The position numbers and the translations under genes were made by a program. The notes beneath the pieces are model-generated. The model was not told the DNA's origin, searched no databases, and worked only from the letters and a program-made list of their open reading frames with translations. A DNA stretch of 64,000 nt, from assembly GCA_947623745.1 (NCBI GenBank), contig CANQHN010000005.1, positions 1 to 64,000 of the forward strand. Reading direction: 5' to 3'. Numbering within the stretch: the first letter of the stretch is position 1; each line of letters starts with the position of its first letter. Shown here piece by piece: positions 9,216 to 22,081 of this stretch. The DNA is from an uncultured Oscillospiraceae bacterium. Lineage in GTDB: Bacteria; Bacillota; Clostridia; Oscillospirales; Oscillospiraceae.

Positions 9216-10661
9216 TTAGTAGGCCACGCCCCAGTAGATCATCTTGTGGGCCGGCCTGCCGCAGCACACGCAGGTGTCGCCCAGGTGCTCCTGCGCGAAG
9301 GGGATGCACCGGGAGGACACGCCGGCCTCCTCCTTCATTTTCAGCTCGCAGGCCACGTCGCCGCACCACATGGTCTTGGCGAAGCCGCCCTCGGTCTCCA
9401 TGAAGGTCTTGACCTCCTCCAGCGTATGGCAGGCCCTGGTGTGGTCCTCCAGGTTCTTCTTGGCCTTGGCGTAGAGGTAGTCGTGGATGTCGTCCAGCAG
9501 GGTTTTCACGGTGCCCTCCAGCTGGTCCAGGGGGACGAACACCTTCTCGCCGGTGTCCCGGCGGCAGATGCAGCACTGGTCCTTCTCCATGTCCTTGGGG
9601 CCGATCTCCACCCGCAGGGGGATGCCCTTCATCTCGTACTCAGCGGCCTTCCAGCCCATGGACTGGTCGGAGTCGTCAATGCCGGCCCGGATGCCGGCGG
9701 CCTTCAGGCGCTCCAGCAGGGTGTTGGCGGCGTCCAGTACGCCCTCCTTGTGCATGGCCACGGGGATGACCATGGCCTGGGTGGGGGCGATGCGGGGGGG
9801 CAGCACCAGACCGCGGTTGTCGCCGTGGGTCATGATGATGCCGCCGATGGTCCGGGTGCTGAGGCCCCAGGAGGTCTCGTGGGGGGTGGTGAGCTTGTTG
9901 TTCTTGTCGGTATAGGCGATGTCGAAGGCCTTGGCGAAGCCGTCGCCGAAGTAGTGGCTGGTGCCGCTCTGGAGGGCCTTCCGGTCGTGCATCATGCACT
10001 CGATGGTGTAGGTCCGCTCGGCGCCGGCAAACTTCTCCTTGTCGGTCTTGAGGCCCTTGACTACCGGCATGGCCAGGATGTTCTCGCACACGTCGGCGTA
10101 GATCTCCAGCATCTGCTCCGTCTCGGCGATGGCCTCCTCGGCGGTGGCGTGGAGGGTGTGGCCCTCCTGCCACAGGAACTCCCGGTGGCGCAGGAAGGGC
10201 CGGGAGGTCTTTTCCCACCGCAGCACGGAGCACCACTGGTTGTAGAGCAAGGGCAGGTCCCGCCAGGAGTGGACGATGCGGCTCCAGTGGTCGCAGAAGA
10301 GGGTCTCGGAAGTGGGCCGGATGCACAGCTTCTCCTCCAGCTTCTCGCTGCCGCCCAGGGTGACCCAGGCGCACTCGGGGGCAAAGCCCTCCACGTGGTC
10401 CTTCTCCTTCTGGAGCAGGGACTCGGGGATGAGCAGGGGCATGGCCACGTTGGTGTGGCCGGTGGCCTTGAAGCGCTGGTCCAGCTCCCGCTGGATATTT
10501 TCCCAGATGGCGTAGCCGTAGGGCCGGTAGATGAACATGCCCTTCACGCTGGAATAGTCGATCAGCTCCGCCTTGGTGCACACGTCGGTGTACCACTGGG
10601 CGAAGTCCACCTCCATGTCGGTGATCTGCTCCACCTGTTTCTTGTTCTGGTCCTTGGCCAT
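9216..10661 (-). CDS. proS: Prolyl-tRNA synthetase (archaeal/eukaryal-type ProS)
   Basis: A 481-residue class II aminoacyl-tRNA synthetase that charges tRNA-Pro. Class II motifs are present: motif 2 around [14 protein letters not shown], motif 3 around the [20 protein letters not shown] region. It lacks the inserted editing domain of long bacterial ProS and ends in a cysteine-containing domain ([19 protein letters not shown]) with a C-terminal tyrosine, as in the short ProS-type-3 group. The ATG at 10661 (MAKDQNKK) follows an AGAGG site. It has its own promoter just downstream of glyS. Confidence 0.96.
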
Positions 10662-10700
10662 GGTCTCAATCCTCTTTCTCAAAATGGATTCGTATCCTTT

Positions 10701-10729
10701 ATTGTATTGGTATGCGGTGGAAAAGTCAA
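10701..10729 (-). promoter_or_regulatory. proS promoter
   Basis: On the minus strand TTGACT (10724-10729), a 17-bp spacer and TACAAT (10701-10706). It gives a leader of about 30 nt before the ATG at 10661, leaving no room for a T-box, unlike glyS. Confidence 0.75.
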
Positions 10730-10747
10730 GCAAAACCGCGCAGGAGA

Positions 10748-10773
10748 GGGGCCGCCCCCCGTGGGGGCGGCCC
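10748..10773 (-). terminator. Putative terminator after glyS
   Basis: A strong GC hairpin (GGGCCGCCCCC stem) lies 20 bp beyond the glyS stop and just before the proS promoter. The leftward T-tract is poor, so efficiency is uncertain. Confidence 0.5.
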
Positions 10774-10792
10774 TTTTTGTTTCATATTTTAC

Positions 10793-12214
10793 TTAAAAGG
10801 CCAGCTTCTCCTCCAGCCAGGCCTTCAGCTCGCTGATGGGCACCCGGACCTGCTCCATGGTGTCCCGGTCCCGGATGGTGACGGCGTTGTCGCCGGCCTT
10901 CTCCCCGTCGCCCACGGTGTCGAAGTCCACGGTGACGCAGTAGGGGGTGCCGATCTCGTCCTGGCGGCGGTAGCGCTTGCCGATGGAGCCGGCGTCGTCG
11001 AAGTCCACCATGAAGTACTTGGACAGCTGGGTCTGGATCTCCCGGGCCTTGTCGGACAGCTTCTTGGACAGGGGCAGCACGGCGCACTTGAAGGGGGCCA
11101 GGGCGGGGTGCAGATGCAGGACGGTGCGCACGTCGTTCTTGGCGGCGTCCACCACCTCCTCGTCGTAGGCGTCCACCAGGAAGGCCAGGGTCACCCGGTC
11201 GGCGCCCAGGGAGGGCTCGATGACGTAGGGGATATAGTGCTCGTTCTTCTCCTGGTCGTAGTAGGTCATGTCCTTGCCGGAGGTGTTCTGGTGGGCGTTC
11301 AGGTCGAAGTTGGTGCGGGAGGCCACGCCCCACAGCTCGCCCCAGCCGAAGGGGAACACGAACTCGAAGTCGGTGGTGGCGTTGGAGTAGTGGGACAGCT
11401 CCTCGGGCTCGTGGTCCCGGAGACGCAGGTTCTCGTCCCGCATCCCCAGGTCCAGCAGCCACTGGTGGCAGAACTTCTTCCAGTAGGCGAACCAGTCCAG
11501 CTCGGTGCCCGGCTGGCAGAAGAACTCCAGCTCCATCTGCTCAAACTCCCGGGTGCGGAAGGTGAAGTTGCCCGGGGTGATCTCGTTGCGGAAGGACTTG
11601 CCCACCTGGCACACGCCGAAGGGCAGCTTGCGGCGGGTGGTGCGCTGGACGTTCTGGAAGTTGACGAAGATGCCCTGGGCGGTCTCGGGCCGGAGGTACA
11701 CGGTGTTCTTGGCGTCCTCGGTGACCCCCTGGAAGGTCTTGAACATCAGGTTGAACTGGCGGATGTCGGTCCAGTTGTGCTTGCCGCAGGTGGGGCAGGG
11801 GATCTGGTGCTCCTCGATGAAGTCCTTCATCTGGGCCTGGCTCATGGCGTCCACGCTGTGGCCCAGGTCGAAGCTGTTCTCCTGACACCAGTCCTCGATG
11901 ACCTTGTCGGCGCGGAACCGCTCGTGGCACTCCTTGCAGTCCATCAGGGGGTCGGAGAAGCCGCCCACGTGGCCGGAGGCCACCCAAACCTGGGGATTCA
12001 TGAGGATGGCGGCGTCCAGGCCCACGTTGTAGGGGTTCTCCTGGACGAACTTCTTCCACCAGGCCTTCTTTACGTTGTTCTTCAGCTCCACGCCCAGGGG
12101 GCCGTAATCCCAGGTGTTGGCCAGGCCGCCGTAGATCTCGCTGCCGGCGAAGATGAAGCCCCGCCCTTTGCACAGGGTGACGATCTTGTCCATGGTCTTG
12201 TCGGTGTTTTTCAT
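10793..12214 (-). CDS. glyS: Glycyl-tRNA synthetase (single-chain alpha2 type)
   Basis: A 473-residue class II synthetase charging tRNA-Gly, of the dimeric single-polypeptide type rather than GlyQ/GlyS. Visible are the N-terminal [26 protein letters not shown] motif region, the motif 2 loop ([21 protein letters not shown]) and motif 3 near EPSLGADR. Two CxxC pairs (DCKECH, CPTCGK) could bind zinc. The ATG at 12214 follows AGGAGCG; upstream in-frame codons belong to the T-box leader and are not coding. Expression is very likely controlled by uncharged tRNA-Gly through that T-box. Confidence 0.96.
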
Positions 12215-12279
12215 ACTTGACGCTCCTTTTTTCTGCCCGTCCCCGGCCGGGACGGCGCGTTTTTTGGATGGCCCGGAGC

Positions 12280-12518
12280 AAAGCAAAACGCCCCAAGCCG
12301 GTTTTCGGCTCAGGGCGAACAATTTCTGTCCGTGGTCCCACCTGAATTCGTATCTGGCTGATACGCACTCTTTGTCCGTAACGGGGACTGGCCGGCGGGG
12401 CATTTCCTCCCCGCGCTCCAGGGCGCCTTCCCGCCGTGCCGCCGGAGGACTTTCACCAGCCGTCCTCTCTCTGAAATCCGGGCTTTTGGGGTACTTTTTC
12501 CCTGTCGTCGCTTTCAGT
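12280..12518 (-). ncRNA. T-box riboswitch leader of glyS
   Basis: The minus strand carries the T-box core GGTGGGACCACGG (12330-12342), close to the consensus AGGGTGGNACCGCG. It is followed by a 12-bp terminator stem (CGCCCTGAGCCG at 12306-12317 with CGGCTTGGGGCG at 12289-12300) and a T-rich run. Stem I and its conserved AGTA/GGTG-containing loops occupy roughly 12420-12515. Known T-boxes read the charging state of a tRNA by pairing a specifier codon; a glycine codon is expected here but was not located with confidence. Confidence 0.9.
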
Positions 12519-12524
12519 GCCCCT

Positions 12525-12553
12525 ATCCTACATGAAAAAGTTCCCGGTGTCAA
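12525..12553 (-). promoter_or_regulatory. Promoter of the T-box/glyS transcript
   Basis: On the minus strand TTGACA (12548-12553), a 17-bp spacer and TAGGAT (12525-12530), placing the start near 12518, at the 5' edge of the T-box leader. Confidence 0.75.
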
Positions 12554-12594
12554 GGGGGAGCGAAAGAAAGTTTTCCGGCCGGGCGCAGAAAAAT

Positions 12595-12682
12595 CGAAAA
12601 AATGTTCGAGAAAGCCTTGACAGGACTAGAACGGATGTTGTATTATCTGACTAGAACACCTGTTTCCACGAAAAAATGTTCG
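12595..12682 (+). promoter_or_regulatory. Promoter with four LexA-like (SOS) boxes
   Basis: The promoter is TTGACA (12617-12622), 18 bp, TATTAT (12641-12646). Four 14-bp sites resemble the Firmicutes LexA consensus CGAACRNRYGTTYG: CGAAAAAATGTTCG at 12595-12608, AGAACGGATGTTGT at 12628-12641 (between -35 and -10), AGAACACCTGTTTC at 12653-12666 and a second exact CGAAAAAATGTTCG at 12669-12682. Sites overlapping and flanking the core promoter would allow tight repression released on DNA damage. Confidence 0.75.
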
Positions 12683-12761
12683 GGCCGCCCGAAATAGTCC
12701 GGTTTTTGGGACCGCCCGGCTGATATGCTCGTTCCATACTGAATGATGGAGGAGATCACAA

Positions 12762-12986
12762 ATGACAGCTCTCAATTATCAGGCCGACCAGTACCTCCGC
12801 CAGGCGGGGAAGATCGTGGATCTGGGGGAGTACCGCCGGCTGCTGGAGCCCTGCCCCGCCGGACTGCCCCCGCTGCCCCGCAGGAGCCGGGAGCGCGGGC
12901 TGGTCCTGCGCCCGGAGGACCTGTTCAGCCTGTGCATGGCGGGCGCCACCGTGGCGCTGACCGGCGCCCTTCTGGCGCTGCTGTGA
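12762..12986 (+). CDS. Small putative tail-anchored membrane protein under SOS-like control
   Basis: A 74-residue protein with no family I recognise. Residues 1-50 are polar and proline/arginine-rich (LRQAGKIVDLGEYRRLL; PPLPRRSRERG), and the last 20 (CMAGATVALTGALLALL) form one hydrophobic segment ending at the C-terminus, as in tail-anchored proteins. A GGAGGAG site is well placed before the ATG. The promoter carries four LexA-like boxes. Size and control recall SOS-induced division inhibitors (YneA, SosA), but there is no LysM domain and the TM is at the opposite end, so that role is only a hypothesis. Confidence 0.75.
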   Translation: MTALNYQADQYLRQAGKIVDLGEYRRLLEPCPAGLPPLPRRSRERGLVLRPEDLFSLCMAGATVALTGALLALL

Positions 12987-13011
12987 GCGCGCCCGCTCCC
13001 CCGCGCAAGTC

Positions 13012-13048
13012 CCCAGGCCCGGTCGCCCCTCCGGCGGCCGGGCCTGGG
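13012..13048 (+). terminator. Hairpin after the small SOS-type gene
   Basis: A 16-bp stem (CCCAGGCCCGGTCGCC with its complement, one G:T pair, five-base loop) 26 bp after the stop. The following T-tract is weak, so some read-through into the next gene is possible. Confidence 0.6.
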
Positions 13049-13147
13049 TGTGCTTTCGGTGAAATCTCTCGGGTTCCATCTTCCCAAATCCCCTCAGATA
13101 TGGTAAACTCATTGTGACCACACCACGCGGGAAAGGCGGTATCCGAC

Positions 13148-16100
13148 ATGAACGAAAAACTGCTCCGTCAGACTACGGCGGACATTGCCCAGGCCATGGT
13201 GGAGCGCAAGCTCCCCTTCGCCTCCAACCGCCGGGCGGCTCTGGCCCTGCTGCGCGCGCCCGAGTTCCAGCAGGGATTGTCCGAGCTGCTGCCCATCCAG
13301 GAGAAGCTGACCTGCGCCCGGGTGCTGGAGCTGTGCGCCCCCATGCTGGAAAAGCTCTCCCCGGCCCCGGAGAAGGGCTGGCTGGCCTTCTGCTACGACT
13401 ACATCCGCAATATCATGTTCCCTCAGTGCGGCTTCTGCCCCGACAGCGCCCGATACAGCGCCGGGGCGGAGTTCTACCTCACTGTTCTGCAGACCCTGCT
13501 GTACGCCGAGCGGCGGGTGCTGCCCTTTGACAACCAGACCAACTACGACTTCCTTGCCCCGGAGGAGTACGGGCAGTACGACTCCCAGAAGGACTACAAG
13601 CGCTTCCGGGAGTACTGGCACCGGGAGTACCTCTATCCCCTCATGCGCCTGGGGGACGAGGTGACCCCCTTCCGCACCCTGGGGCACATCGCCGGGGTCC
13701 ACCACGTGGCCGTCACCGCCGCCCGGGGGCTGAAGGCCGCCGGGGAGGATGTGGACGTGGCCCTGGTTTCCGCCGCCGCCGCGGCCCACGACCTGGGCAA
13801 GTACGGCTGCCGCCCGGGGGAGGCGGTGCCCCATCTGCACTACTACTACACCGGCCACTGGCTGGAGAGCCGGGGGCTGGATGCGGTGAGCCACATCGCC
13901 GCCAACCACTCCACCTGGGACCTGGAGCTGGACAGCCTGTCCGCCGAGTCCCTGTGCCTCATCTACGCCGACTACCGCAGCAAGCAGACCCGGGACGAGC
14001 AGGGGCGGGAGGTGCCCGTCATCTACCCCCTGGACCAGTCCTTCCAGGTGATCCTGTCCAAGCTGGAGAACGTGGACTCGGCCAAGCGCCGCCGGTACGA
14101 GTTCGTCTACGGCAAGCTCCACGACTTTGAGGACTATATGCGCTCCCTGGGGGTGGACGTGGAGCTGTCCGGCGAGCCGGGGGAGCCCTGGCCGGTGAAG
14201 GACCCGGCGCTGATGGACCCGGACGAGACGGTGGAGCAGCTGGTGCTCATGTCGGTGGAGCACAACCTGCGCCTGATGCACCAGCTGAGCAGCGAGCGCA
14301 AGTTCGGCAACATCATCGAGGCCGCCCGCTCCGCCAAGAACTGGACCCAGCTGCGGGCCTATCTGAACGTGTTCGAGGAGTACTGCACCTACCTGTCCGC
14401 CCAGCAAAAGACCCAGGCGCTGGCCTTCCTCTATGAGCTGCTGGTCCACCGGGAGGGCGACATCCGCCGTCAGGCCGCCGCCCTGATCGGGCAGATCATC
14501 GCCCAGTTCCACCTGGTCTACCGCAAGCAGGTGCCCAAGGACGCCGCGGGAGACCCGGCGGAGGAGGTGCCCTTCACCCTGTGGGAGCAGTACCTGGAGC
14601 AGATCATCTACCCCGACCACAAGACCACCCAGCAGCAGCGGGCCCACATCGGCTACTCCCTGAAGATCATGGTGGATGCCCTGCTGCGCTGCGGCCGGCC
14701 GGAGAGCCGGGGGCGGTTCGTGGGGGCCCTGCTGCGCTACTACGAGGACCCCCAGGGCAAGGACGCGGATACCGCCTTCACCCTGCTGGACGCCATCCGC
14801 ACCCTTCCCCCCCAGTATTACGGAGACGAGATGCGGGGGAAGCTGATCGAGTTCGCCGCCTGCTTCACCGTCCACGAGGAGGTGCGCCTGCGCACCGCCG
14901 CGCTGCTGTTCCTGCGGGAAGCCCAGCGCTCCCTCCACCGCCAGCACCCCCAGATGCGCCGCATCGTGGAGGTGGTGCGCGCCGGGGAGCGGCCCGGGGA
15001 CGGGCTGTCCCTGGTGTTCCTGCGCTACAAGATCCTCAAGCGGGCCGGGGAGGACGTGGAGCCCTACCGGCAGCTACTGTACCAGCAGGACGTCACCGGC
15101 GAGGTCTTTCTGGAGAACCTGAAGATCGCCACTCCCTGGGTGAGCAAGGTGGTGGGCATCGAGCTGCTCCGGGACCAGGTAGAGCAGGGGCTGATGGAGC
15201 ATGTGCTGCACATCTCCACCCACTTCTCCAACCTGGTCAAGGTGTCCGAGCGGGTGGTGGTGCGCCACACCGCCGGCGACGCCCTGGTGGGCATCCTGCC
15301 CAAGCTGCGCCGGGAGCAGCGCAACGAGGTGGTGGTGGAGCTGGGCAAGGGCCTGGAGATGGGGCAGTACAACATCTCCAAGTACATCCCCCAGTATCTG
15401 GGCCAGGCGGCCCTGTTCCTGCACCCCAGCGAGCTGGACGAGCAGGTGCTCTGGCTCAAGACCCTGCTGGGCTCCCCCAGCGACAGCGCCGTGTCCGGCG
15501 CGCTGAACACCATCGGGGTGCTGCTGGAGCACTACCCGGCCTACCGGGACCGGTTCCCCGAGTCCAAGCGCCGCTACGACGAGCGCTGGCAGGAGCTGCT
15601 GGGCCTACTGCTCCAGGGCCTGGCCCACTACCGGGAGGCGGTGCGGCAGGAGGCCCTGCTGGTCACCGGCAAGCTGCTGTTTGAGAGCGGCCGGCTGAGC
15701 ATGGAGGAGAAATCCCGCATCTTCGAGCTGTGCTACCGCAAGCTGCTCTTCCTCATCCGGGAGGCCGACCGGCAGGACAGCCTGACCTTCTTCTACCGGG
15801 CCTCCGCCCTGTCCCACATCAACCGCTTCATTGCCCTGCGGCGGCTGGACCACGGGCCCTTCGCTTTCGACCACCCCAGGAAGATCGCCTTCTTCCCCGG
15901 CACCTTCGACCCCTTCACCCTGTCCCACAAGGGCATCGTCCACGCCATCCGGGACCTGGGCTTCGAGGTGTACCTGGCCGTGGACGAGTTCTCCTGGTCC
16001 AAAAAGGCCCAGCCCCACCTGATCCGCCGGCAGATCGTCAACCTGTCGGTGGCGGGGGACTTCCACGTCCACCTGTTCCCGGACGACATCCCGGTGAACA

Positions 16101-17944
16101 TCGCCAACCCCGCCGATCTGAAGCGTCTGCGGGAGCTGTTCCCCGGCCAGCGGGTCTACCTGGTGGCGGGCAGCGACGTGGTGGCCCACGCCTCCTCCTA
16201 CCAGGCGCCGCCCCGGCCCTGGTCCATCCACTCCATGGACCACATCATCTTCCACCGGGCGGGGGGCACCCCTCTGCCGCCCCGCCGGCAGCTGCCCATC
16301 ACCGGGGACGTGATCCAGCTGCAGCTGCCCGCCCACCTGGAGGACATCAGCTCCACCCGCATCCGGGAGAACGTGGACCTGAACCGGGACATCTCCAACC
16401 TCATCGACCCGGTGATCCAGGACTTCATCTATCAGAACGGCCTGTACCTGCGGGACAGCCAGGATAAGCCCCTGCTGTCCGCCGACGAGGTGGACTTCCA
16501 GTGGGTGGACGAGCCGGAGCCCGAGCTGGTGGCCGAGCTCACTGTGGGGCGGCCCGACCTGGAGCCCACCCGGGCCGCCATCCTGCGGGACGGGGACCGG
16601 CTGCTCCTGCTGCGCGGGGGAGAGGGGATTTTGGGCTTTGTGAGCTGGCGGTATTTGGCCGCCTCCCAGCTCTTCTCCGCCCTCCAGGACGCCGATCTGG
16701 CCGACCGCATCCGCCTGCGGGCGGGGGGCGGCGTACTGTATATCACATGCGTGGCCCAGAACGTGGCCCAGCGGCACCGGGACTACGCCCGGCTGCTGCT
16801 CACCGAGGTGTTGGCGCGGGCCCTGGAGGAGGAGTGCGTCTACGCCGTCTACCGCCCCCACAACCGGGGCATCTCCGAGCGGATGGAGGACCTGGCCGCG
16901 CGGCAGGGTTTCGTCCGCCGGGAGGGGAACATCCCCCTGATGGAGGTGGACATGCGGGCCCCCACGGTGCTCATCCAGAATCTGGAGACCACCATCCAGG
17001 ACCCCCTGAGCCGCAACCCCCGGGTGCTCTCCGCCATCCGCCGGGGGCACCAGAGCCTCCAGCGGGCCATCGCCAACCTCTACCCCGGCAACCTGGTGCT
17101 CACCCTGTCCTCCGACGTGATCCACCACCGGCTGCTCCAGCGCATCACCGCCATCAACGGCGTGCCCAGCACCCCCACCAACCCCCGGGTGCTGGGGGAG
17201 TATATGTGCGTCCCCTTCGGCAAGATGCTCCGGGGGAAGATCGTGCCCAACACCGTCACCAAGACCATCCACACCGACAAGGTGTATCAGCCCGACCTGA
17301 AATCCAACACCATCGAGGCCTTCCCCTACTACGCCCCCATCCCCAGCCAGGTGCGCACCATCAAGTCCTTCGACCGCCCGGTGATCCTGGTGGACGACCT
17401 GATGCACCCCGGCATCCGCATCAAGACCCTGGGGCCCATCCTGGAGCAGGAGGGGGTGCCGGTGCGCATGGTGCTGGTGGGCGTGCTGTCCGGCTACGGC
17501 CGGGACCAGATGAACGCCCGGAACTGCCCGGTGGACAGCGTCTACTTCCTGCCCACCCTGCGCCAGTGGTTCGTGGAGTCCACCCTGTACCCCTTCATCG
17601 GCGGCAATACGGTCCGCCGCCCCAGCCAGCCGGTGCCCGGCCTGCTGCCCGGAATCAACCACATCCTGCCCTACGCCGCCCCGGCCTGGCAGGAGGAGTG
17701 CGGCCGGGAGGCCGCCTTCCAGCTGTCCAAGGCCTGCCTGGAGGCGTCCCTGGACGTGCTGCGCACCCTGGAGCAGGAGTACCGCTCCCTCTACGGCCGC
17801 AACCTGACCCTGTCCCGCCTGCCCGAGGCGGTGATCCTCCCCCTGTGCCCGGACAAGGGCACCTGCCTGAGCTACGATCCCAACCTGGCCGCCTCCGTTT
17901 ACCTGGAGAACGACCTGGAGCAGCTCATGCGGCAGAATCTCTGA
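13148..17944 (+). CDS. Giant multidomain protein: HD + helical repeats + NadD-like nucleotidyltransferase + GNAT-like + PRTase-like
   Basis: A 1598-residue single frame. An HD-type domain lies at about 175-330 (H180, H214-D215 in AAAHDLGKYG). A long alpha-helical, HEAT-like region spans about 390-890. Residues 912-1105 form a nucleotidyltransferase with FFPGTFDPFTLSHKG (T-L-S-H in place of the HxGH box) and the SSTRIR motif at 1068-1073. A GNAT-like stretch (YARLLLTEVLARALEEE) follows at about 1140-1290. The C-terminal third contains RPVILVDDLMHPG (1410-1422), a type I phosphoribosyltransferase PRPP-loop pattern. In Firmicutes NadD and the HD protein YqeK are usually neighbours, so the fusion joins known partners. 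The actual reaction is unknown. It heads a three-gene operon; the start has an AAAGGCGG site. Confidence 0.85.
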   Translation: MNEKLLRQTTADIAQAMVERKLPFASNRRAALALLRAPEFQQGLSELLPIQEKLTCARVLELCAPMLEKLSPAPEKGWLAFCYDYIRNIMFPQCGFCPDSARYSAGAEFYLTVLQTLLYAERRVLPFDNQTNYDFLAPEEYGQYDSQKDYKRFREYWHREYLYPLMRLGDEVTPFRTLGHIAGVHHVAVTAARGLKAAGEDVDVALVSAAAAAHDLGKYGCRPGEAVPHLHYYYTGHWLESRGLDAVSHIAANHSTWDLELDSLSAESLCLIYADYRSKQTRDEQGREVPVIYPLDQSFQVILSKLENVDSAKRRRYEFVYGKLHDFEDYMRSLGVDVELSGEPGEPWPVKDPALMDPDETVEQLVLMSVEHNLRLMHQLSSERKFGNIIEAARSAKNWTQLRAYLNVFEEYCTYLSAQQKTQALAFLYELLVHREGDIRRQAAALIGQIIAQFHLVYRKQVPKDAAGDPAEEVPFTLWEQYLEQIIYPDHKTTQQQRAHIGYSLKIMVDALLRCGRPESRGRFVGALLRYYEDPQGKDADTAFTLLDAIRTLPPQYYGDEMRGKLIEFAACFTVHEEVRLRTAALLFLREAQRSLHRQHPQMRRIVEVVRAGERPGDGLSLVFLRYKILKRAGEDVEPYRQLLYQQDVTGEVFLENLKIATPWVSKVVGIELLRDQVEQGLMEHVLHISTHFSNLVKVSERVVVRHTAGDALVGILPKLRREQRNEVVVELGKGLEMGQYNISKYIPQYLGQAALFLHPSELDEQVLWLKTLLGSPSDSAVSGALNTIGVLLEHYPAYRDRFPESKRRYDERWQELLGLLLQGLAHYREAVRQEALLVTGKLLFESGRLSMEEKSRIFELCYRKLLFLIREADRQDSLTFFYRASALSHINRFIALRRLDHGPFAFDHPRKIAFFPGTFDPFTLSHKGIVHAIRDLGFEVYLAVDEFSWSKKAQPHLIRRQIVNLSVAGDFHVHLFPDDIPVNIANPADLKRLRELFPGQRVYLVAGSDVVAHASSYQAPPRPWSIHSMDHIIFHRAGGTPLPPRRQLPITGDVIQLQLPAHLEDISSTRIRENVDLNRDISNLIDPVIQDFIYQNGLYLRDSQDKPLLSADEVDFQWVDEPEPELVAELTVGRPDLEPTRAAILRDGDRLLLLRGGEGILGFVSWRYLAASQLFSALQDADLADRIRLRAGGGVLYITCVAQNVAQRHRDYARLLLTEVLARALEEECVYAVYRPHNRGISERMEDLAARQGFVRREGNIPLMEVDMRAPTVLIQNLETTIQDPLSRNPRVLSAIRRGHQSLQRAIANLYPGNLVLTLSSDVIHHRLLQRITAINGVPSTPTNPRVLGEYMCVPFGKMLRGKIVPNTVTKTIHTDKVYQPDLKSNTIEAFPYYAPIPSQVRTIKSFDRPVILVDDLMHPGIRIKTLGPILEQEGVPVRMVLVGVLSGYGRDQMNARNCPVDSVYFLPTLRQWFVESTLYPFIGGNTVRRPSQPVPGLLPGINHILPYAAPAWQEECGREAAFQLSKACLEASLDVLRTLEQEYRSLYGRNLTLSRLPEAVILPLCPDKGTCLSYDPNLAASVYLENDLEQLMRQNL

Positions 17945-17959
17945 TATGCTGGTGATTTC

Positions 17960-19198
17960 ATGTACTACTACCACTGCAAAAGCGCCAACCTGGTCTTTCT
18001 GACCCCCCAGATGGGCTTCGGCCCGGAGATCGCCCCGGTGGAGTCCGGGCACCTGTTCGCCCCGGTGAAGGGGGACCCCGCCCTGGGGCGGGGGAGCTTC
18101 AAGGTGAACTGCCCCGGACAGCTGGAGGCCCCCCATGGCCTGGAGGTGCTGGACGTCTCCCGCCTGCCCCGGACCCAGGTGGACGGCCCCACCGCCGCGG
18201 CCATCGCCCAGGGGCGGCTCACCGCTGTGGACCGGAGCCGCCCCAACTGGGAGAAGCTGCTCACCGCCGCCCCAAAGCCGGGGAAGAAGCGGGTGAACCT
18301 CCTGGCCATCGGGGACGTGGGCTCCACCCTGCTCACAGGGCTGAAGCTGCTGGGCGGGGACGTGGTCTCCTCCATCGGCATCTGCGACCTGTCCGAGCAG
18401 ATCACCGCCCGGTGGGAGTTCGAGATGGGGCAGATCTCCCTGCCCTGGGACTACGGCGCCTTCCCCGAGGTGGAGGTGATCCCCCCGGAGCGGCTGTTCG
18501 ACTGCGACCTGTTCGTCTTTGTGGCCTCCAAGGGCATCCCGCCGGTGGGCTCCAAGGTGAAGGACGTGCGCATGGCCCAGTTCGAGCAGAACGCCGCCAT
18601 CGTCAGGCACTATGCGAGGATGGCCCGGGCGGCCCATTTCCAGGGGCTGTGGGCGGCGGTGTCCGATCCGGTGGACCCCCTGGCCAAGACCGCCTACCTG
18701 GAGAGCAACCGGGACGAGAACGGCCGCTGGGACGGCCAGGGCCTGCGGCCTGAGCAGGTGCAGGGGTTCGGTCTGGGGGTGATGAACGCCCGGGCGGCCT
18801 ACTTCGCCAAGCGGGACAGCCGGTTCGCCTCCTTCCTCACCGAGGGGCGCTCCTTCGGCCCCCACGGCACCGGACTGACGGTGGCCAACTCCATCGAGCA
18901 CTATGACGACGCGCTGTCCCAGGAGCTGACCCAGCTGACCGTCACCGCCAACCTGAAGATGCGGGAGCTGGGGTTCAAGCCCTACGTGGCCCCGGCCCTG
19001 TCCTCGGGGGCGCTGTCCCTGCTGCTCACCCTGCGGGGGGAGTGGCACTGCGGCTCGGTGTTCCTGGACGGGGTGTATATGGGGGTCAAGAACCGCTACA
19101 CCCCCGCCGGCATCGAGACGGAGCTGCTGCCCCACATCCCGGACGCCCTGTTCGGCCGTATCCGGGACGCGGCGGAGCACTTGAAACAGATCATTTGA
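17960..19198 (+). CDS. Lactate/malate-dehydrogenase-like NAD-binding protein
   Basis: A 412-residue protein, 15 bp after the giant gene. An N-terminal domain of about 105 residues, unfamiliar to me, precedes a Rossmann fold with glycine loop IGDVGST (117-123) and ending of strand 2 at ICDLSEQ. FVFVASKGIPPVGSK and the VSDPVDPLAKTAY motif (234 onward) parallel the LDH/MDH VSNPVDxLTY segment. The usual catalytic Arg and His of true LDH could not be placed with confidence, so it may be a divergent non-catalytic or altered-substrate member. Its consistent placement with a nucleotidyltransferase and a flavin reductase suggests a redox or cofactor role. Confidence 0.65.
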   Translation: MYYYHCKSANLVFLTPQMGFGPEIAPVESGHLFAPVKGDPALGRGSFKVNCPGQLEAPHGLEVLDVSRLPRTQVDGPTAAAIAQGRLTAVDRSRPNWEKLLTAAPKPGKKRVNLLAIGDVGSTLLTGLKLLGGDVVSSIGICDLSEQITARWEFEMGQISLPWDYGAFPEVEVIPPERLFDCDLFVFVASKGIPPVGSKVKDVRMAQFEQNAAIVRHYARMARAAHFQGLWAAVSDPVDPLAKTAYLESNRDENGRWDGQGLRPEQVQGFGLGVMNARAAYFAKRDSRFASFLTEGRSFGPHGTGLTVANSIEHYDDALSQELTQLTVTANLKMRELGFKPYVAPALSSGALSLLLTLRGEWHCGSVFLDGVYMGVKNRYTPAGIETELLPHIPDALFGRIRDAAEHLKQII

Positions 19199-19210
19199 GA
19201 GGGTGTCCCT

Positions 19211-20269
19211 GTGTCTCTGACTGTCATCTATCCCGCGCCGGACGCCCCCGGCGCGCAGGCGCGCCTGGACGATGTACTGTCCTGCGCTCTGGAGGGGCGA
19301 GAGCCCCGGGTGGCGCGCCGGGCGGAGGACCTGGACGGCCTGGGCGGCCAAAAACTCCTCTTTGCCCTCCCCCTGGGCCGGGCGGGGGTCAACACCGAGT
19401 ATCTGCGGATGCTGGCCCGGCTGCGGCTGGAGCCGGGGCTGCTGGAGGGGTGTACGGCGGGGATCATCACCGACGGGGATTCCCCCCTGTATACCAAATC
19501 GGCGGCCACGGAGCTGGCCCTGGCGGCAAACCTGGCCGGATGCGCCTTTTTGGGCCGCCCCCTGGCGGAGGGCACCGGCTCCCTGGTGAATTTCAAGGTC
19601 CAGGCGAAAAACCTGGGCACCGACCTGATGGGGGCCTACCGGGCCGCGGCCCGGGAGCTGGTCCAGCGCCTGGAGGGGGAGGCCTTCCCCCGGCGGGAGC
19701 GGCCCGAGCTGCTGGTACTCCACGCCTCCATCCACCGCACCTCCAACACCGTCCAGCTGTGGGAGGGGGTGCGCCGGCGGCTGGGGGACGCCTGCGATGT
19801 GACGGAGATCGGCCTGCGCAACGGCACGGTGTCCGACTGCGCCGGATGCCCCTATACGACCTGCCTGCACTTCGGGGAGCAGGGGGGCTGCTTCTACGGC
19901 GGGGTGATGCAGGAGGAGGTCTACCCGGCGGTGCGCCGGTGCGGTGCGGTGGTGATGCTCTGCCCCAACTACAACGACGCCCTGTCCGCCAACCTCACCG
20001 CCTTCATCAACCGCCTCACTGCCCTGTTCCGCCAGACCCGGTTCTATGACAAGGCGCTGTTCGCCGTCGTGGTCTCCGGCTACTCCGGGGGGGACATCGT
20101 GGCCCGGCAGCTCATCTCGGCGCTGAACATGAACAAGTCCTTCTACCTCCCGGAGCGGTTCGCCCTGCTGGAGACCGCCAACGACCCGGGCGAGGCCGCC
20201 GCCCTGCCCGGCATAGACGCCCGGCTGGACGCCTTCGCGGGGCATATCCTGAAGGTGATGGGAGCATAA
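19211..20269 (+). CDS. Flavodoxin-fold NAD(P)H-dependent FMN reductase-like protein
   Basis: A 352-residue protein starting at a GTG 12 bp after the previous stop. The C-terminal 190 residues match the NADPH-dependent FMN reductase/flavodoxin family: LLVLHASIHRTSNTVQL for the phosphate loop, then a cysteine cluster C210-A-G-C213-P-Y-T-T-C218 and a further Cys near 228, and MLCPNYNDALSANLTAFINR. The N-terminal 150 residues form a second alpha/beta region of similar character, possibly a degenerate flavodoxin copy. It closes the operon and is followed by a terminator. Confidence 0.78.
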   Translation: MSLTVIYPAPDAPGAQARLDDVLSCALEGREPRVARRAEDLDGLGGQKLLFALPLGRAGVNTEYLRMLARLRLEPGLLEGCTAGIITDGDSPLYTKSAATELALAANLAGCAFLGRPLAEGTGSLVNFKVQAKNLGTDLMGAYRAAARELVQRLEGEAFPRRERPELLVLHASIHRTSNTVQLWEGVRRRLGDACDVTEIGLRNGTVSDCAGCPYTTCLHFGEQGGCFYGGVMQEEVYPAVRRCGAVVMLCPNYNDALSANLTAFINRLTALFRQTRFYDKALFAVVVSGYSGGDIVARQLISALNMNKSFYLPERFALLETANDPGEAAALPGIDARLDAFAGHILKVMGA

Positions 20270-20275
20270 AAAAGG

Positions 20276-20301
20276 CCCGGACCGGGGTATCCCGGTCCGG
20301 G
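20276..20301. terminator. Bidirectional terminator between the reductase and M23 genes
   Basis: Perfect 11-bp stem CCCGGACCGGG with a GTAT loop. T-runs lie on both sides (ATTATTTTT rightward, TTTTTTATG leftward), matching the two convergent genes. Confidence 0.85.
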
Positions 20302-20306
20302 TCCAA

Positions 20307-21104
20307 TTATTTTTCGGGAAGGAAATCGAGGGGGTCCACCGGCTGGCCGTCCCGGAGCATCTCCAGGTGCAGGTGGGGGGCCGAGGCGCTCTCGGCGATG
20401 GCGGAGGAGCCCAGGGTGCCCAGTACGGTGCCGGTCTCCACCTCCTGGCCCTCGGCCACGGAGATGTCGCTGGACAGGTTGGAGTAGACGCTCATCAGGC
20501 CGTTGGGGTGGGCCACCACCACGGTGGAGCCCATCATGTCGTCCTGGTAGACGGCGTCCACCACGCCGTCGCTGGTGCACAGCACCTGAAAGCCCTCGCC
20601 GGCGGCGATGTCCACCCCGGCGTGGGTGCGCCAGTCGCCCATGGTCTCATCGTAGGACAGGGTCTCCACGCTGAAGGCCCGCAGCACCTGCCCCTTCACC
20701 GGCCAGGTGTACACCGGCCGGGCGCCGGCGGCGGACGCGGGGGCCTGGGCCTGGCTTTGGCCCCCGCTCTGGGAGACCTGGGGGGTCCTGTTCTGGGCGG
20801 ACGGGGCCGCGGTCTCGTCCGGCTCAGGCACCGAGGGGACCTTGGGGGCCGCGGACGGGGTCTTGACCGGGGCCTTGTCCTGGGCCGGCGGGGCGGACGG
20901 CGTCCTGGACGCGCCGCTCCCGTCGGGGAGGGTCACGGCGGGGTTGGCGGCCGCCGGCTCCAGCAGGGAGTCGGGACCGGCTGTGGCGGATCGGATCAGA
21001 TAATAGCCCGAAATTCCAATTGTGGCGACACAAAGGAAAAGGACTATGTAGAAGCCCTTCCCCAGCACGAAGTCGCCCAGCTTTTCCAGCAGGGTTCGTT
21101 TCAC
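20307..21104 (-). CDS. M23 family metallopeptidase, SpoIIQ-like membrane-anchored protein
   Basis: A 265-residue protein with one N-terminal transmembrane helix (about 17-38, GFYIVLFLCVATIGISGYYL), a Pro/Ala/Ser-rich linker of about 90 residues and a C-terminal LytM/M23 domain. Zinc ligands appear intact: HAGVDIAAG and HLHLEM. In endospore formers SpoIIQ spans the forespore membrane and pairs with SpoIIIAH; clostridial SpoIIQ can keep zinc ligands. The GTG at 21104 has a GGAGG nine bases upstream and is preferred over the GTG at 21113. SpoIIQ identity is probable, not certain; a general cell-wall endopeptidase is the alternative. Confidence 0.8.
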   Translation of the reverse strand: MKRTLLEKLGDFVLGKGFYIVLFLCVATIGISGYYLIRSATAGPDSLLEPAAANPAVTLPDGSGASRTPSAPPAQDKAPVKTPSAAPKVPSVPEPDETAAPSAQNRTPQVSQSGGQSQAQAPASAAGARPVYTWPVKGQVLRAFSVETLSYDETMGDWRTHAGVDIAAGEGFQVLCTSDGVVDAVYQDDMMGSTVVVAHPNGLMSVYSNLSSDISVAEGQEVETGTVLGTLGSSAIAESASAPHLHLEMLRDGQPVDPLDFLPEK

Positions 21105-21187
21105 ACAAACCACCTCCGCACCCTATTGTGGACAGGGGGGCGGGAGGTTATACCGGAGTGGTGAAATTTTTTTGCCCGCGGGAGAGG

Positions 21188-22081
21188 TCAGCCGCTGTGC
21201 CGGGAGTAGCAGGCGATGCCGAAGATGATGATCAGGCCGCCCGCCACCGCGGTGACGCTGGGGATCTGGCCGAAAATGGGGATGGCGAACAGGGAGGCGA
21301 ACACCGGCTCCATCAGCTTCACCGTGCTGATGAAGGAGGCGGGGACGTATTTCAGCCCCCAGCTGAACACGCTGTGCCCCAGCAGGGTGCACAGCACCGC
21401 CATGCCGAACCCGATGAGCACCTCCTTGGCCCCGTAGCCGAAGCAGGGCAGGCCCTGGGCGGTGAGCATAACCACCATGGACAGCGAGGCCACCCAGTAT
21501 ACCAAGGTGGTGTACACCGTGGTGGACATCTTCTGCCGGCAGAACTTCCCCATGATGGTGTAGATGGACATGAAGGCCGCCCCGGAGATGGCGTACAGGT
21601 CCCCGCGGATCACGTCGCTCCCGCCGCCGGCGTCCCCCGCGGCGATGATCACGCTGCCCGCGAAGGTCAGCAGGATGCCCAGCCAGCCCCTGGCGGAGAT
21701 CTTCTCCTTGAAGAAGATCAGCATGATGAAGGCGACGAAGAACACCTCCGTGTCCACCAGCACCACGGAGGAGGCGATGCTGGTGTAGCGGATGGCCTCG
21801 AAGTAGGCGGTGAAGTGCAGGGACAGGAAAAACCCGCTGACCAGGCAGCACAGCAGCTCCCTGCGGCCCCAGCTCCTGTACTCCTTTTTCAGCTGGACCA
21901 GGCAGGGGACGGTCATCACCAGCGCGGCCAGCAGCACCCGGTAGAACACCAGCACCATGGACGGCGCCTGGGACCACTTCACCAGGATGGCGGAGAAGGA
22001 CACCCCCACCACGCCCAGCAGGACGATGCCCTTTTTGCCCAGATTGGAAGCGCCCGCCCTGGCGGCGGTTTGATCGGCCAT
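21188..22081 (-). CDS. DMT/EamA-family transporter
   Basis: A 297-residue membrane protein with about ten hydrophobic segments and the two EamA repeats of the drug/metabolite transporter superfamily (FYRVLLAALVMTVPCL, ASSVVLVDTEVFFVAFIML in the first; YVPASFISTVKLMEPVFAS in the second). It probably exports a metabolite; substrate unknown. The ATG at 22081 (MADQTAARAG) follows GGGGGGAG; the longer frame upstream overlaps the divergent promoter region and is not coding. Confidence 0.88.
   Translation of the reverse strand: MADQTAARAGASNLGKKGIVLLGVVGVSFSAILVKWSQAPSMVLVFYRVLLAALVMTVPCLVQLKKEYRSWGRRELLCCLVSGFFLSLHFTAYFEAIRYTSIASSVVLVDTEVFFVAFIMLIFFKEKISARGWLGILLTFAGSVIIAAGDAGGGSDVIRGDLYAISGAAFMSIYTIMGKFCRQKMSTTVYTTLVYWVASLSMVVMLTAQGLPCFGYGAKEVLIGFGMAVLCTLLGHSVFSWGLKYVPASFISTVKLMEPVFASLFAIPIFGQIPSVTAVAGGLIIIFGIACYSRHSG

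Follow-up and report, generated by a model that had tools for sequence, protein, structure and literature searches.

Positions 13,148 to 20,269 of the window analysed here (64,000 nucleotides; positions 1 to 64,000, forward strand, of contig CANQHN010000005.1 in assembly GCA_947623745.1 of an uncultured Oscillospiraceae bacterium) encode three proteins that we tentatively propose to form a dedicated pathway for an NAD-like dinucleotide, with a glutamate-linked regulator as the next candidate. All three genes lie on the forward strand. Gene 1 (P0001; 13148..17944; 1,598 amino acids, ATG start) joins an HD domain, a helical stretch, a NadD-like nucleotidyltransferase, a GNAT-like part and a phosphoribosyltransferase in one chain. 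It is followed after 15 bp by gene 2 (P0002; 17960..19198; 412 amino acids), encoding a Rossmann protein of the lactate/malate dehydrogenase (LDH/MDH) family, and after a further 12 bp by gene 3 (P0003; 19211..20269; 352 amino acids, GTG start), encoding a flavodoxin-fold FMN_red protein with an extra N-terminal part. An earlier annotation made from the letters alone, below called the first-pass annotation, had given these coordinates, lengths and spacings exactly.

In the proposed pathway, the C-terminal phosphoribosyltransferase would join a base or aromatic acid to ribose-5-phosphate from phosphoribosyl pyrophosphate (PRPP), giving a mononucleotide. Through the NadD-like domain, a nucleoside triphosphate would then donate a nucleotidyl group (probably AMP) to this mononucleotide, the HD domain would cleave wrong or surplus product, and the LDH-like and flavodoxin-fold proteins would bind or convert the product or use it in electron transfer. 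This reading is based on the folds, the conserved metal-type HD and nucleotidyltransferase residues, the strictly joint occurrence of the genes and the presence of a canonical NadD-YqeK elsewhere in the genome. By analogy, the combination of phosphoribosyltransferase, NadD-like nucleotidyltransferase and hydrolase follows the logic of base salvage into a dinucleotide with editing, known from phage NadV with NadM-Nudix (PMC9503650) and from NadD-YqeK proofreading (PMC9426524), and the Rossmann and flavin proteins are natural users of such a product. Among the mechanisms considered, this one has the best support, with the regulator not far behind.

Domains of the fusion protein

The NadD-like nucleotidyltransferase part (15878..16456) contains the motifs GTFDPFTLSHK (15899..15931; residues 918-928) and SSTRIR (16349..16366; residues 1068-1073). 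In an alignment of 119 rows, G918, F920, D921, H927 (119/119), K952, G1008, D1010, S1068, S1069 and R1073 are invariant and residue 924 is either T (77 rows) or S (42 rows). A NadD fold was found, with NaMN/NMN adenylyltransferases as the closest solved folds, and the protein scored 33.8 bits against the curated NCBIfam cut-off for NadD of 150 (NF000840). The nicotinate-site SYTxDTL segment and the Trp of canonical NadDs are absent in all ten aligned members of the system, and S1017 occupies the Trp position (S in 78 and A in 38 of the 119 rows). The canonical side of this comparison consisted of 12 NadDs of relatives picked by the pattern SYTxxT, which is therefore theirs by selection. Judged from the alignment, the site seems conserved on the side of the nucleotide donor and altered on that of the acceptor. 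The first-pass annotation had suspected a divergent substrate from the change of the HxGH box to TLSH. The missing SYTxDTL and Trp speak for such a divergence, but the T itself is no strong evidence, since T or H is usual at this position in the superfamily. The annotation had also asked whether a separate nadD/yqeK exists elsewhere in the genome, and an ordinary NadD-YqeK frame of 439 amino acids with both SYTxDTL and Trp is indeed encoded on contig C56. The changed acceptor site together with this retained enzyme argues for a product other than NAD.

The HD domain region (13670..14182; residues about 175-345) has seven residues that are identical in all 119 rows (H180, H214, D215, K218, H231, H254 and D275), and these include the metal-type H...HD...D residues of HD phosphohydrolases (H180, H214, D215 and D275). 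Pfam HD matched the sub-region with E 1.4e-4 (22.5 bits; cut-off 22), and the whole protein scored 18.8 bits. Gene 1 also matches the HD part of NF045665 (the DVU_1551 family of nucleotidyltransferases with HD) with E 1.4e-8, in 31 of 31 aligned members, but the family's own nucleotidyltransferase part has no match in gene 1 and the score of 34 bits lies far below the family cut-off of 315. A YqeK identity of the HD part, as the first-pass annotation implied, found no support: profile comparison (hhalign) with eight YqeKs yielded E 0.18 over 26 columns, and the HD part of NF045665 matches instead. Residues 346-904 (14183..15859), which separate the HD domain from the nucleotidyltransferase, form a long helical, perhaps HEAT-like region, a reading taken from the sequence only (HEAT_2, E 0.14).

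The C-terminal part (16946..17941) has a type I phosphoribosyltransferase fold (residues about 1267-1473) and a conserved extension to residue 1598. The PRPP-loop equivalent VILVDDLMHPGIR (17381..17419; residues 1412-1424) retains both Asp residues in 116 of the 119 rows, R1424 in 116, H1420 in 111 and G1422 in 110. Compared with the phosphoribosyltransferases of its own genome, the profile of the domain gave weak matches (E 0.019 to 0.085); its identity was settled by fold. Orotate and adenine phosphoribosyltransferases differ from gene 1, which has His and Arg where the usual loop residues stand and about 125 extra C-terminal residues. Between the nucleotidyltransferase and this domain lies a poorly conserved region (16487..16957; residues about 1114-1270) for which a GNAT fold was found; its profile had no match among PDB sequences. 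The domains named in the first-pass annotation (HD, nucleotidyltransferase, GNAT and phosphoribosyltransferase, LDH-like gene 2 and FMN_red gene 3) are supported by Pfam, profile or fold, and domain prediction recovered both the nucleotidyltransferase and the phosphoribosyltransferase folds, on which that annotation had made its reading depend.

Redox partners

Residues 108-412 of the gene 2 protein align with ordinary lactate dehydrogenases (hhalign E 2e-10, 279 columns), and a profile search of PDB gave a best E of 7e-7. The counterparts of R109, R171 and H195 of L-lactate/malate dehydrogenases (LDH numbering, also for D168 below) are kept as R204, R278 and H302. Gene 2 differs from these enzymes by about 105 extra N-terminal residues, and its first 100-105 or so residues are missing in two homologues. 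A search at E 1e-8 found no canonical LDH in the own genome, although 21 of 24 genomes searched from the same genus encode such an enzyme.

Gene 3 matches FMN_red with E 1.2e-16 and has four cysteines (C210, C213, C218 and C227; Cx2Cx4Cx8C; 19838..19891) that are invariant in 27 aligned sequences. It shares the FMN_red family and a compact cysteine cluster with the NADPH-dependent FMN reductase / iron-sulphur flavoprotein type, but differs by the spacing of its putative cluster and by an extra N-terminal part of about 160 residues.

Co-occurrence and distribution

The three genes are a unit and not a coincidence. Near-full-length homologues of gene 1 are encoded in 10 of 394 genomes sampled from the order and in 8 of 398 from the phylum (own genome included in both), and the same 10 genomes of the order carry gene 2 (E up to 1e-15) and gene 3 (E up to 1e-12). 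All three genes were also found in six of the seven other carriers in the phylum sample, including one locus (L157) at 34%, in Acetoanaerobium, where gene 1 is at 33% identity, and in 14 of 16 loci of three further families. Conservation of the three-gene unit, on which the first-pass annotation had staked its reading, is supported. In all lineages seen, the gene 1 domains are fixed in one chain. The gene 1 frame is real: full-length homologues are present in 29 of 36 other genomes of the same genus (six more are partial, several at contig ends, and one has none). At least 559 relatives were confirmed in a named collection.

Among 80 named loci, 65 had more than 2.5 kb of downstream sequence, as counted by a script that undercounts L129; gene 2 followed in 60, gene 3 in 55 and neither in five. 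Four of the genomes of these five loci hold gene 2 elsewhere and G822 shows none; gene 2 also lies elsewhere in the genome in G750. Gaps between the genes vary from several bases to more than 1 kb, and L065 has gene 3 in reverse orientation. At L129, a further stretch similar to gene 1 extends beyond the unit, up to 20422.

The distribution is patchy: G147 and G304 lack the unit although they belong to the same genus as carrier G355, and G288 likewise compared with carrier G383. In trees of 35 loci (for gene 1 by a quick method), the four Chloroflexota copies grouped for every gene in a single clade next to the same three Clostridia from the rumen. These copies all come from metagenome bins, although separate ones, and could still reflect mis-binning. 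The trees suggest that the three genes were transferred jointly, which the first-pass annotation had not seen. A plasmid-borne system was considered and rejected, as the sole matching plasmid record is a 2.63-Mb Acetoanaerobium entry that, given its size, is probably a chromosome. A role in anti-phage defence or a phage origin was not adopted either: no PADLOC or PHROGs family matched the three proteins at E 0.01, although a missing PADLOC model is no proof, and a scan of viral contigs matched 54 stretches with no relative among them.

Neighbouring genes

When all neighbours of 104 loci were clustered (20 lineages at 60% identity), glutamate dehydrogenase was the only family in more than three lineages (9 loci, 6 lineages), a recurrence that the first-pass annotation had not seen. 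It flanks the unit in 9 of 120 loci, or in 8 of the roughly 114 contigs that are distinct (at least six are present under two identifiers, e.g. L048 and L128, which leaves lineage counts unaffected), and in 6 of 22 lineages, with the next family in 3 of 20, and the label needs six changes on a tree of 64 rows. The gene lies directly upstream of gene 1 in L127, L048/L128 and L047, immediately follows gene 3 in L043 and is 2.5-4.2 kb downstream at the remaining loci. Among the neighbours checked with Pfam, all four dehydrogenases were confirmed as Glu/Leu/Phe/Val dehydrogenase, both symporters as the sodium/glutamate symporter GltS and the single regulator as a YcbB response regulator; NCBIfam also supports the glutamate dehydrogenase, and the symporters and regulator adjoin in some loci. 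If 1.5 such genes per 2.5-Mb genome are assumed, a value that was not measured, 0.74 flanking copies are expected and the chance of six or more is 1.3e-4. No glutamate dehydrogenase was nearby in the 16 loci of the later sample of three other families or in the window's genus, and none was found in a control of 54 other loci, which at 185 kb is too small to test the point. We regard this neighbour as a lead only. In L096, L100, L101, L108 and L133, genes for a sensor kinase and for a response regulator with a YcbB domain are located downstream of the unit.

In the window, gene 3 and its convergent neighbour are separated by a two-way terminator-like hairpin (20274..20303); five such sites were found where 3.2 are expected from shuffles, so the hairpin is weak evidence on its own. 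On the reverse strand, an open frame of 1,546 residues (15605-20245) overlaps most of the unit in antisense. The number of stops in the antisense frame of gene 1 ranges from 0 in some relatives to 69 in others, and the frame is therefore most likely a high-GC artefact. Ahead of the unit, a 74-residue frame (12762-12986, forward strand) has a purine-rich leader and no Pfam match at 1e-5 and may be a separate small gene; a promoter-like site (12617-12646) and a hairpin (13012-13048) are nearby. Farther upstream, a T-box leader (12308-12517, reverse strand; Rfam E 5e-21) precedes a divergent gene recognised by eye as glycyl-tRNA synthetase-like, and an ARAGORN call of tRNA-Thr (11377-11449, forward strand) antisense within that gene is probably a false positive.

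Proposed pathway and alternatives

Several observations count against a pathway for an NAD-like dinucleotide. PRPP loops usually carry an Asp pair and a Thr-Gly phosphate grip with phosphate-binding Thr residues; the latter are His and Arg here, which leaves PRPP use uncertain. By sequence alone the phosphoribosyltransferase is weak: Pfam Pribosyltran (PF00156) gave E 0.29 on the window protein (10.9 bits; gathering cut-off 26.3) and matched 13 of 32 members (best E 0.0016), and a search of the own genome at E 0.01 found ten places, with the gene 1 domain not among them. The acetyl-CoA loop motif of GNATs is Q/R-x-x-G-x-G/A, and by sequence it is not evident at residues 1210-1220 in the 119-row alignment. 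In gene 2 the catalytic Asp-His pair is broken, as H302 is kept and the counterpart of D168 is M275, invariant in 40 aligned sequences. Around the unit loci no substrate-specific neighbour gene was found, and an Rfam scan of this locus (window positions 10500-21500) showed no riboswitch naming a metabolite, the T-box of the other gene being the only hit.

Some of these changes would suit a glutamate- or redox-linked sensor and regulator, a doubtful alternative that nevertheless comes close to the pathway in likelihood. In such a protein the nucleotidyltransferase would write and the HD domain erase a nucleotidyl signal, the phosphoribosyltransferase and GNAT parts would be ligand sensors, and genes 2 and 3 would report the NAD(P)H or iron-sulphur state. 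GlnD pairs a nucleotidyltransferase and an HD domain as writer and eraser, although on other folds, and the degenerate GNAT and PRPP loop fit sensor domains. The prominence of glutamate dehydrogenase among the neighbours, with GltS and YcbB beside it, points the same way, but its absence from the later loci and the window's genus speaks against this reading, and the control is small. The known acceptors of nucleotidyltransferases with this fold are small-molecule phosphates and not proteins. If the domains were instead mostly inactive and the unit a structural or chaperone-like relic, the poorly conserved GNAT part and the lost Asp of gene 2 would be explained; the identity of the metal-type and nucleotidyltransferase residues in 119 of 119 rows, across lineages down to 33% identity, makes this highly improbable. 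We also consider it very unlikely that the large helical protein serves as a scaffold for the nucleotidylation or ribosylation of RNA or protein, the redox partners taking a further step. A helical stretch of about 560 residues does suggest a binding platform, and the one-chain domain set is constant, but no RNA- or protein-binding domain was recognised in gene 1, of which residues 1-904 were read from sequence only. A further alternative is a second, quality-controlled route to NAD itself, in which an iso-NadD that carries its own HD domain for editing would work with a salvage phosphoribosyltransferase. The closest solved folds agree with this, and NadD-YqeK proofreading is established (PMC9426524). 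A canonical NadD-YqeK is already present, however, the nicotinate-pocket SYTxDTL and Trp are missing, with S1017 in place of the latter, and the known NAD-salvage phosphoribosyltransferases differ in fold (NadV is a TIM barrel; PMC9503650), so that we judge this route decidedly unlikely.

We retain the NAD-like dinucleotide pathway as our tentative reading. In its most far-reaching form, which taken as a whole is unlikely, one protein of 1,600 residues would make a previously unknown cofactor or signal, an analogue of NAD in which another base replaces nicotinamide, from free base, PRPP and nucleoside triphosphate. The product would serve the oxidoreductase and flavoprotein of the unit and, in several lineages, would be tied to the glutamate metabolism of gut anaerobes. 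If the pathway is right, bacteria common in gut and rumen (Lawsonibacter, Flavonifractor, Oscillibacter and relatives) would contain an undescribed dinucleotide that a single protein assembles and dedicated partner proteins use. Few other cases would be known where a new redox cofactor or nucleotide signal could be approached, in a testable way, from gene content alone. Even with an ordinary product, the unit accounts for three protein families that lack a specific name and are found together in hundreds of genomes.

Comparison with known nucleotide systems

No description of the fusion or of the three-gene unit was found in open-licence literature; the parts are known and the combination appears new. 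Phage NAD salvage uses NadV and NadM-Nudix and shares with gene 1 the logic of phosphoribosyltransferase, nucleotidyltransferase and hydrolase, but NadV is a TIM-barrel enzyme and the Nudix domain resides on NadM, whereas gene 1 combines a type I phosphoribosyltransferase and an HD domain in a single chain (PMC9503650). NadD-YqeK fusions, e.g. of Mycoplasma and on contig C56 of the own genome, resemble gene 1 in that a NadD-fold nucleotidyltransferase and an HD hydrolase share one chain. In gene 1, however, the HD domain is N-terminal and apparently of another HD group (E 0.18 in the comparison with YqeK), the helical stretch separates it from the nucleotidyltransferase, GNAT and phosphoribosyltransferase domains are added and the nicotinate-pocket motifs are absent.
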